From Acidobacteriota bacterium (GTDB taxonomy: Bacteria > Acidobacteriota > Terriglobia > Acidiferrales > UBA7541): 47,228 nt of DNA. The notes under the pieces are model-generated. The model was not told where the DNA came from. It saw nothing but the letters and a program-made list of their open reading frames with translations, and did no database searches. The position numbers were made by a program, and so were the translations under genes. This document shows, piece after piece, positions 7,554 to 11,768 of the stretch (positions are counted from its first letter, which is position 1; each line of letters opens with the position of its first letter). The stretch spans positions 1 to 47,228 of the forward strand of contig QHYR01000252.1 of NCBI GenBank assembly GCA_003223315.1, in the 5' to 3' direction.

Positions 7554-8801
7554 ATGGATTTCTCGCTCACCGACGACCAGCGCCTGATTCGAGAGAATGT
7601 GCGGCGGTTCATGGAGACGGAAGTGCGCCCCGTGATTCGCCGCTACGACCGCGAGGAAAAATTCGCCGGCGCGGAGATCCGGCGCCTCGGGGAACTCGGC
7701 TGCTGCGGGATGCTGATTCCGGAAGAGTGGGGCGGCGCCGGGCTCGACACCATCTCCTACGTGCTGATGCTCGAAGAAGTCGCGCGCGTGGATGCGTCCA
7801 TGGCCGTGGCGCTGAGCGTGGCCAATTCCGTCGTGGCTTGGCCGCTCTGGCGCCATGGCAATGATGAGCAGCGGCGAAAATATCTGCCGCGGCTCGCGCA
7901 TGGCGAAATGTTGGGCGCCTTTTGCCTGACCGAGCCGCAGGCCGGTTCGGATGCCGCCGCCATCGAGACACGCGCCGTTCGCAGCGGCAAGAACTACCGC
8001 CTGAATGGGACCAAAAGTTGGGTCACCAACGGAGGCGAAAGCGGCGTCTATCTCGTTTTTGCCAAAACGGCGCCCGCCGCCGGTGCCCCAGGGGTTACTA
8101 AAAACGTGATAACCGCTTTTATCGTTGAGCCGGGCTTCTCCGGCTTTCGCGTGAGCCGCTACGAAGATAAAATGGGCTTGCGATCTTCGCGTTCGGCGGA
8201 AATTCTTTTTGCCGATTGCCAAGTGCCGCAGGAAAATCGCCTGGGCCAGGAAGGCCAGGGGCTGAAGATCGCGCTCGAAGCGCTGGACAGCGGCCGCGTG
8301 GGCATCGCCGCGCAGGCCGTGGGCCTCGCGCAGGGCGCGCTCGAAGCTGCGGCGCGTTACGCGAGAGAGCGGCGCGCCTTCGGCAAAACCATCGGCGAAT
8401 TTCAGGCCATCCAGTTTATGCTCGCGGATATGCAAACGGAGATCGAGGCGGCGCGCTTCCTGGTCTGGCAGGCGGCCTGGCTGCGAGACACGACGCGCGA
8501 CGCGGGCCCTGAAACGGGATTGACCCGCCTCGGCGCTTATGCTTCGCGCGCCAAACTTTTTGCCGCCGAGATGGCCAACCGCGTGGCCTCTAAGGCCGTG
8601 CAGATTCACGGCAGCATGGGCTATTCGCGCGAGAGCGACGTGGAACGCATGTATCGCGACGCTCGCGCGCTCTCCATTTATGAAGGCACCAGCGAGATTC
8701 AGCGCATGATCATCGCCAGAGACCTGCTCGGCGCCGGGGTGCGCGGCGCCGATGCCAACGCGCCGGTTGCAACGGAAACCCGTGGCCGAGGGGCTCATTA
8801 G
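7554..8801 (+). CDS. Acyl-CoA dehydrogenase
   Basis: 415 aa; CLTEPQAGSDAAAI, GTKSWVTNGGES, QIHGSMGYSRESDVERMYRDARALSIYEGTSEIQRMIIARDLL. Confidence 0.95.
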   Translation: MDFSLTDDQRLIRENVRRFMETEVRPVIRRYDREEKFAGAEIRRLGELGCCGMLIPEEWGGAGLDTISYVLMLEEVARVDASMAVALSVANSVVAWPLWRHGNDEQRRKYLPRLAHGEMLGAFCLTEPQAGSDAAAIETRAVRSGKNYRLNGTKSWVTNGGESGVYLVFAKTAPAAGAPGVTKNVITAFIVEPGFSGFRVSRYEDKMGLRSSRSAEILFADCQVPQENRLGQEGQGLKIALEALDSGRVGIAAQAVGLAQGALEAAARYARERRAFGKTIGEFQAIQFMLADMQTEIEAARFLVWQAAWLRDTTRDAGPETGLTRLGAYASRAKLFAAEMANRVASKAVQIHGSMGYSRESDVERMYRDARALSIYEGTSEIQRMIIARDLLGAGVRGADANAPVATETRGRGAH

Positions 8802-8802
8802 A

Positions 8803-10131
8803 GTGCCGCCAAGCGCAGAAAATGCCCAGGAGAAGAGAAAGCGCGTCCTGAGCGGCATGCGTCCCACTGGGCGGCTGCACATCGGACATTATTTTGGCGC
8901 GCTCCAGAATTGGATTCGCTTACAAAATGACCCACAGTACGAATGTTTTTATTTCATCGCCGATTGGCACGCCCTGACCACCGATTACGCCGATACGTCC
9001 TTCGTCGCGCAGAACACCATCGAGATTGGCACCGACTGGCTGGCGGCGGGACTCGATCCGGATAAGTGCACGTTATTTGTGCAGTCGGCGGTGCCCGAGC
9101 ACGCCGAGCTGAATCTGCTGCTGTCCATGATTACGCCGCTTGGCTGGCTCGAGCGTGTGCCCACCTATAAGGAAGCGCTCGAAAACATCAAGGACAAAGA
9201 CCTGCACACCTACGGTTTCCTCGGCTACCCCGTCCTGCAGACGGCGGACATCGTCCTGTACGGGGAACCGGATGCGGGCTTGATCGTCCCTGTCGGCGAA
9301 GATCAGGTCTCGCACGTGGAGCTGTCTAGGGAAATCGTGGGCCGTTTTACGTCCCTGTATGATCGGGAGGCACTATGGATAGATCCGTCTGTTGTGTCGG
9401 ATGCCGCGAAAGTAAAGGCACTTTTGGCCGAGACTATCCTTCCCGAGGCAGACCAGACGAGAATTTTGCGTTCAGTTTTATCAGGTGACCCGTCAGAGTT
9501 TATCGGTTACTTGCGTAAGTTGACAGAAGACGAAACCGGCTGGGAGGACTTATGTAGCCGTGTTCCAGGCTGCACCACATACCTTTCATATCGCCCAATT
9601 CTAAGACACCCTCACGTGATGCTCACGCATACGCCGCGGATTCCCGGGCTCGATGGGCGCAAAATGTCCAAAAGCTATGGCAACGCCATCATGCTCAGCG
9701 AATCCGACGACGACATTCGCAAAAAAACCAAAGTGATGGTCACCGATCCGGCGCGCAAGCGCCGCCAGGACCCCGGCAATCCAAACATTTGTCCCGTCTT
9801 CGACTGGCACAAGCTGTTTTCGCCGAAGGACGTCCAAGATTGGTCGGCGCACGGCTGCCGCACCGCCGGAATCGGCTGCATCGAGTGCAAAAAGGCCATG
9901 GCCGACAATCTGATCAAATGGATTGAGCCGGTGCGGCAGCGCCGGCAGGATTACGAACAGCAGCCGCAGCAAGTGCTCGAGTATCTGGATACAGGCTCCA
10001 AGCGGGCGCGCATGGTGGCGCAGCAAACCATGGATCGCGTGCGCGAAGCCGTCTTTCACTGGGACGAGAAGCGCAGCGAGATTCGCGGGCCACGGCGCGA
10101 AGCGAAGAATGCACCGGCGGGACGAGGGTGA
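8803..10131 (+). CDS. trpS: Tryptophanyl-tRNA synthetase, [4Fe-4S]-motif type, with anomalous internal segment
   Basis: SGMRPTGRLHIGHYFGALQNW, VPVGEDQVSHVELSREI, GRKMSKSYGN; C-terminal C-x21-C-x6-C-x2-C; probable GTG start at 8803 just after the upstream stop (ORF track starts 8752). Confidence 0.92.
   Translation: MPPSAENAQEKRKRVLSGMRPTGRLHIGHYFGALQNWIRLQNDPQYECFYFIADWHALTTDYADTSFVAQNTIEIGTDWLAAGLDPDKCTLFVQSAVPEHAELNLLLSMITPLGWLERVPTYKEALENIKDKDLHTYGFLGYPVLQTADIVLYGEPDAGLIVPVGEDQVSHVELSREIVGRFTSLYDREALWIDPSVVSDAAKVKALLAETILPEADQTRILRSVLSGDPSEFIGYLRKLTEDETGWEDLCSRVPGCTTYLSYRPILRHPHVMLTHTPRIPGLDGRKMSKSYGNAIMLSESDDDIRKKTKVMVTDPARKRRQDPGNPNICPVFDWHKLFSPKDVQDWSAHGCRTAGIGCIECKKAMADNLIKWIEPVRQRRQDYEQQPQQVLEYLDTGSKRARMVAQQTMDRVREAVFHWDEKRSEIRGPRREAKNAPAGRG
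9325..9621 (+). other. In-frame compositionally foreign segment within trpS (~99 codons, ~77 residues longer than expected here)
   Basis: Hand-counted GC3 50/99 versus 23/28 in the 28 codons upstream; CTA, ATA, AGG, AGA, TTA, TCA codons cluster here; minus-strand shadow ORFs break at 9315 and resume at 9601. Confidence 0.8.
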
Positions 10132-10981: not shown

Positions 10982-11003
10982 GGAGGCAAGGTTAGCAAGA
11001 CTC

Positions 11004-11768
11004 ATGACGATGACCTCAATCGAACTGAAAAGCGCGCTCGAAGCGATTATCTATGCGGCGGACGAGCCCGCCACGCTCGAACAGCTCGCGAGCATTCTGG
11101 GCGAGGAGAAACACGCCGTGCGTGCGGCGCTCGATGAGCTGGTGGCCAGCTACGCGAGCGACGAGCGCGGCGTGGAGATTCGCGCCGTGGCCGGCGGCTA
11201 TCGCGTTTACACCAAGCCGCAGCACCACGATCTGGTCCGCAGATTCATCAAGAGCCTGCGGCCGCCGCTGCGGCTGACCATGCCGGCTCTGGAAACGCTG
11301 GCGGTGATCGCCTACAAGCAGCCGGTGACGCAGCCGGAAATGCAGGAGATTCGCGGCGTGAATTGCGCCGGGGTGATCGAAACATTGCTGGAAAAGCGAT
11401 TGATCACCACGGCGGGGCGCAAACAGGTGATCGGCCGGCCGATCCTCTATCGCACCTCGAAAGATTTTCTGATGCGCTTCGGGCTCGGCGATCTCGACGA
11501 ATTGCCGAGCCTGAAGGAGTTCGAGGCACTGGTGCGCGAAGCCCTGGGCGCAGACGACGGCATCGCCGCCGAAGCGCCCGCAGAAGAGACGGCCGCGGAA
11601 AGCGGCGAGCAAGCTCCGCCGGAATCAGCATCACCATCGACGCCGGATGCGAGCGCTGTGCGTGAAGGTTCCGGCGAATCGCCGACGGCTGACTCGGACG
11701 TCGCGGGAGAGGGGCCCGGCGAGTCTGCTGGCCGCGCGGCCAAGCAGGCCGCCCCGGGTTCGCAGTAG
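11004..11768 (+). CDS. scpB: Segregation and condensation protein B
   Basis: LKSALEAIIYAADEPATLEQLASIL...LETLAVIAYKQPVTQPEMQEIRGVNCAGVIETLLEKRLI; acidic Ala/Glu-rich tail. Confidence 0.93.
   Translation: MTMTSIELKSALEAIIYAADEPATLEQLASILGEEKHAVRAALDELVASYASDERGVEIRAVAGGYRVYTKPQHHDLVRRFIKSLRPPLRLTMPALETLAVIAYKQPVTQPEMQEIRGVNCAGVIETLLEKRLITTAGRKQVIGRPILYRTSKDFLMRFGLGDLDELPSLKEFEALVREALGADDGIAAEAPAEETAAESGEQAPPESASPSTPDASAVREGSGESPTADSDVAGEGPGESAGRAAKQAAPGSQ

Follow-up and report, generated by a model that had tools for sequence, protein, structure and literature searches.

Aminoacyl-tRNA synthetases are essential, conserved and cytoplasmic enzymes, and they are often used as vertical markers. 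Variation has been described in the form of synthetase homeoalleles, divergent forms with a patchy distribution that are replaced by transfer or by recombination in place (PMC3191353, PMC3436685). Tryptophanyl-tRNA synthetases (TrpRS) of the Fe-S type carry the signature C-x(21-24)-C-x6-C-x2-C in their anticodon-binding domain, and the TrpRS topology has the strand order 32145, followed by a hinge and then by the KMSKS motif (PMC2954223). Synthetases can also be targets of toxins, as HipA/HipT kinases inactivate TrpRS, GltX and LysS: HipT phosphorylates TrpRS at the KMSKS motif (S197), and kinases of the HipA family hit GltX, LysS and TrpS (PMC6581861, PMC8262856). Nothing relevant to hypervariable inserts in synthetases was found in the open-access literature.

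The trpS gene and its insert

The window, which is the whole stretch of 47,228 nucleotides that was analysed, contains an acidobacterial trpS gene with a long insert. The features of the locus are:

7554..8801, + strand: upstream neighbour, acyl-CoA dehydrogenase (Pfam; conserved synteny)
8752..10131, + strand: trpS, tryptophanyl-tRNA synthetase of the Fe-S (C-x21-C-x6-C-x2-C) type, start approximate (PF00579, TIGR00233, 2g36)
8878..8889, + strand: HIGH motif, residues 43-46 (sequence)
9325..9621, + strand: replaced stretch, in sequence and codon use unlike same-genus relatives (DNA identity profile against L003 and L004; blastn gaps against L172-L174)
9367..9630, + strand: extra residues 206-293, the hypervariable insert (absent from 2g36 and from insert-less relatives of the class)
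9373..9591, + strand: predicted strand-clamped helical subdomain, residues 208-280 (AlphaFold2, pLDDT about 67-90 over most of it)
9661..9675, + strand: KMSKS motif, residues 304-308 (sequence)
9790..9888, + strand: region with the four Fe-S cysteines C347, C369, C376 and C379 (motif of PMC2954223)
10142..10921, + strand: downstream neighbour scpA, start approximate (PF02616; synteny)
10986..11768, + strand: scpB, start approximate (PF04079; synteny)

The open reading frame of 459 residues is a tryptophanyl-tRNA synthetase by two profiles, both above their cut-offs (PF00579, E 2.2e-59 and 201.6 bits against 21.1; TIGR00233, 5e-78 and 262.7 bits against 176.75), and by its HIGH and KMSKS motifs, and among solved structures the closest to it is that of the Fe-S TrpRS from Thermotoga maritima (2g36). 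A preliminary description of this DNA had assigned it to the Fe-S type, and the spacing C347-x21-C369-x6-C376-x2-C379, with cysteines invariant in the alignments, fits that signature; an Fe-S cluster is predicted. The same description had pointed out that 88 residues are added ahead of the KMSKS loop, at a place where Thermotoga-type enzymes have few, and both points hold on the solved structure: the alignment to 2g36 stops at residue 205 and picks up at residue 285, with few residues between in 2g36, and the Pfam and TIGR00233 matches are split into two stretches around the gap. The borders given for the unusual segment, 9325-9621, were also right, as the DNA identity to two syntenic loci of the same genus drops after ~9334 and is back to 0.96 at 9622, the 3' border being sharp and the 5' border gradual. 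The abrupt codon shift was found again (GC3 0.505 in the insert and 0.762 in the flanks), the minus-strand shadow ORFs do break off at 9315 and begin again at 9601, and the idea that a homologous stretch was replaced and a domain added is supported. Two residues inside the conserved R-R-F-N motif, G197 and T200, are unlike those of the relatives.

Neither a Pfam search of the insert segment nor PADLOC gave a match, nor did a scan of the genome contigs with the insert alone as query, and the insert profile had no significant match among solved structures, the best one being a designed helical protein (E 0.027). An intein was rejected, in line with the preliminary description: the segment matches no Pfam family, it has neither C, S or T as first residue nor a terminal HN, and there are many sites of variable length. 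A target of a diversity-generating retroelement is unlikely, because the inserts differ as wholes and in length, and the gene is flanked by those for acyl-CoA dehydrogenase, ScpA and ScpB. A phage source was also set aside, as the ten viral TrpRS loci compared, taken at the level of the enzyme and not of the insert, reach identities of only 35-41%.

The structure prediction that had been proposed as a check yields a helical subdomain held in a clamp of two short strands: in the AlphaFold2 model the clamp strands 208-210 and 278-280 lie between helix 183-207 and strand 288-291, and for an insert of a second class (L033) a similar clamp with fewer helices is predicted. The insert sits in the loop that leads from a helix to the last Rossmann strand, and from the published topology (PMC2954223) a helix-to-strand loop should lie on the face opposite the active site.

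Occurrence and hypervariability in the family

An insert is present at the same site in every measurable TrpRS of the acidobacterial (Gp2) family, for which 73 sequences including that of the window were collected, one of them not measurable; all genomes compared here are one per species and mostly MAGs. The whole window protein has close matches in relatives of the same family, two genomes of the same genus having been labelled Acidobacteria gp2 by their depositors, and relatives without the insert occur in the class and order (e.g. L028, L029, L031). The acidobacterial inserts are built on a common skeleton: a shoulder with R-R-F-N, a G..NF motif and, ahead of the return to MLT, L.EP. In 69 of 70 family genes the insert has a lower GC3 than the flanks (means 0.591 and 0.748, p 5e-13), and as this shift is clade-wide, it does not indicate that the window copy came recently from a foreign source. 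The preliminary description would have given up its reading if most close relatives carried the same segment with matching codon usage: the insert of the relatives does have matching codon usage and is comparable in length, but the segment itself is not the same.

Sister genomes have almost wholly different inserts, and the class of the window insert is common to another genus. The TrpRS flanks of the window, G001 and G003 are 92-94% identical, the inserts 14-27%, and among the 33 pairs with flank identities of at least 0.90 the median insert identity is 0.26, which equals the median of pairs with flanks at 0.60-0.70. For proteobacterial TrpRS that have an insert at this site, the median insert identity is 0.92 (five pairs with flanks of at least 0.90) and still 0.80 at flanks of 0.85-0.90 (nine pairs). 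In the acidobacterial family the insert region ranges from 44 to 116 aa.

Further peculiarities were seen in single genomes. The TrpRS of G002 (L011, G002:C376) is 87% identical to that of the window in its N-terminal half and 65% in its C-terminal half, as if it were also recombinant. In addition to the insert-bearing gene, two family genomes have a second TrpRS-like one; both are MAGs, where contamination is possible (G023:C122:1189-2151 and L171, G089:C194). Some g6 genomes (L166-L170) have a second long helix-to-strand loop in TrpRS, between the HIGH helix and the CFYF strand, with a HIGH-to-WHAL distance of 44-63 instead of the usual 24-26.

Insert classes and their exchange

The TrpRS inserts group into classes, defined from the insert sequences only, that span genera. 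The window insert aligns with that of L126 (genus g5) with a score of 84 (null maximum 44 in 3000 shuffles) and with the insert of its nearest flank relative with a score of only 24; its class recurs only in G101, a genome of another genus, and 399 genomes of the class gave no further strong match. On the flank tree, 11 genera fit with 10 changes, whereas 16 insert classes need 28, which lies between the possible minimum of 15 and the 34-43 of shuffles and thus speaks for both inheritance and switching. Each of the four classes tested was rejected as a flank clade (p-AU 1.6e-6 to 1.3e-4).

Within alignable pairs of the same class, selection is mostly purifying, with dN/dS of 0.02-0.44 where computable and 0.56 in one shallow pair; dS is saturated in about half of the same-class pairs. 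Same-class pairs keep 63-96% identity at a synonymous divergence near or above 1, as in the inserts of L012 and L013 (96% identity, dN/dS 0.02, dS 1.14). In many same-class inserts dS is saturated or above that of the flanks, and long-lived alleles as well as a raised local mutation rate fit this. As the classes extend across genera, the four tested are rejected as flank clades and selection within classes is mostly purifying, the insert is swapped and not drifting. Between genera, inserts of one class resemble each other less than their flanks do, so either the exchanges are old or the classes long-lived, and no recent transfer was caught among them. In a search for silent or free copies, a profile of 61 inserts found only the TrpRS copy in the genus and a weak match in G002 (E 0.135).

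HisRS and other synthetases

Histidyl-tRNA synthetase (HisRS) is a class II enzyme with a fold unrelated to that of TrpRS. In the acidobacterial family it has an insert of ~100 extra residues (~80-126 aa) between EMY.FED and LRPEATA, and in three genomes of the same genus these inserts are almost wholly different between closely aligned flanks. Sisters with HisRS flanks at 0.95 have inserts that share nothing (score 24), and L358 (g5) and L374 (g6) have an insert in common, with 48% identity at flanks of 0.70. The insert is missing in at least 17 genomes of the family (at most 9 nt between the matched halves), one genome without it being G101. The best score between HisRS and TrpRS inserts, 54, is close to the null maximum of 52 and no homology is claimed; HisRS is an independent parallel to the pattern in TrpRS. 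The synthetases concerned, besides TrpRS, are:

L313:697-2256 (G000:C89), L355-L384: HisRS with hypervariable insert
L229:1381-2610 (G000:C153), L240-L262: TyrRS with divergent C-terminal S4-type domain
L307:8804-10993 (G000:C327): PheT with a ~40-residue variable stretch between conserved flanks (G000 against G001)

A survey for such cassettes covered 191 orthologue pairs of G000 and G001, a sample enriched for synthetase neighbourhoods. Four pairs passed the filter for an internal cliff in identity, and closer inspection left only TrpRS and HisRS as cassette-like: the variable stretch of PheT is only moderate, and a lipoprotein turned out to have a deletion. In the raw filter, synthetases passed in 3 of ~15 cases and other genes in 1 of ~176 (p 0.0015, or 0.015 without TrpRS), an enrichment that is suggestive only, as the sample favours synthetase neighbourhoods and the ~15 synthetases are an estimate. 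In TyrRS, the C-terminal S4-type domain has 35-52% identity within the genus against 94-96% elsewhere in the protein, which looks like a domain replacement.

Possible explanations

With a probability of about one half, the insert is an exchangeable hypervariable helical subdomain whose classes are kept by diversifying selection from an agent that binds the synthetase. The segment in the window would then be one genome's allele of a subdomain that is found throughout the acidobacterial family, and whole inserts would be moved between lineages by short homologous recombination through the conserved flanks. The many classes might be kept by diversifying or frequency-dependent selection, and the insert may be the surface at which an antagonist recognises the synthetase, candidates being a phage protein, a toxin or a HipA/HipT-like kinase; a swap would alter this surface and leave catalysis untouched. 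That TrpRS, HisRS and perhaps TyrRS of this lineage all carry antigen-like modules, exchanged between genera and diverse through an arms race within translation against phage-, toxin- or competitor-borne proteins that recognise synthetases, is a wider and doubtful idea.

It is unlikely that the insert instead docks a normal cellular partner (a complex, a regulator or a tRNA-handling protein) that covaries with it, with no antagonist involved. The conserved scaffold, the purifying selection within classes and their long persistence would fit such a partner, but a class switch between sister species would require that the partner be switched too, the inserts of TrpRS and HisRS are unrelated, and G101, which shares the TrpRS insert class of the window, is without a HisRS insert.

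Non-adaptive mosaicism, in which any loop that is tolerated would be exchanged through high recombination in these populations, whether or not the mutation rate is locally raised as well, is rather improbable, since more genes would be expected to be affected than the two cassette-like ones among the pairs surveyed, in a sample enriched for synthetase neighbourhoods; for it speak the low GC3 of the insert, its dS that is often higher than in the flanks, and the likewise divergent C-terminal domain of TyrRS within the genus. We consider it quite unlikely that a loosely constrained surface loop simply drifts fast and that the apparent classes are leftovers of common ancestry. The surface location, the lengths of 44-116 aa, the absence of a catalytic motif and the weaker codon bias are as expected of such a loop, but same-class pairs keep their 63-96% identity at high synonymous divergence while sisters with 94% identical flanks share only 14%, and the classes cut across the flank tree. 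A recent foreign insertion, an assembly chimera or an edit in the window genome, as the preliminary description had considered from the abrupt change in codons and identity, can practically be dismissed, because an insert in the same site and frame is found in every measurable TrpRS of the family, with the codon shift in all but one of the genes compared and across dozens of separate assemblies, the C-terminal end of the window insert fits the family skeleton, and G101 has an insert of the same class.

A many-allele polymorphism of a domain inside an essential synthetase, repeated in a second, unrelated one, is unexpected, and wholesale exchange with the rest of the enzyme nearly unchanged would suit surface antigens, whereas a housekeeping enzyme is not expected to show it. 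The novelty is the modular exchange and its repeat in HisRS, not the single copy in the window. Such a polymorphism would point to an agent that acts on synthetases, and for phylogenetics there is the caution that such genes can be mosaic.

Comparison with known systems

The Fe-S TrpRS of T. maritima (2g36) has the same fold and cysteine motif as the window enzyme, but is without an insert between the helix and the last strand. Nearer in layout is the PRK12283-type TrpRS of Beta- and Gammaproteobacteria (NF008922, ~400 aa), whose insert has about the same length and sits at the same site, and NF008922 is the best full-length profile match of the window TrpRS. At 480.3 bits this match stays below the curated cut-off of 572, and the PRK12283 insert is conserved in sequence and length, whereas the acidobacterial insert is not and has no detectable profile similarity to it (hhalign probability 0.5%); on neither count does the window TrpRS fall into that type. 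HipA/HipT kinases are known to inactivate synthetases, and for the insert they are candidate antagonists only. Bacterial antigenic variation and hypervariable surface proteins likewise combine a conserved scaffold with an exchanged variable module and low identity between close relatives, but TrpRS is a cytoplasmic essential enzyme with no silent cassettes found in the genus and no known immune target. The closest concept is that of the homeoalleles, which are likewise patchy, divergent forms of one synthetase. Their unit, however, is the whole gene, in two or three forms, whereas in the acidobacterial TrpRS it is an internal domain in many classes, and the flanks follow the genera while only the insert is patchy.
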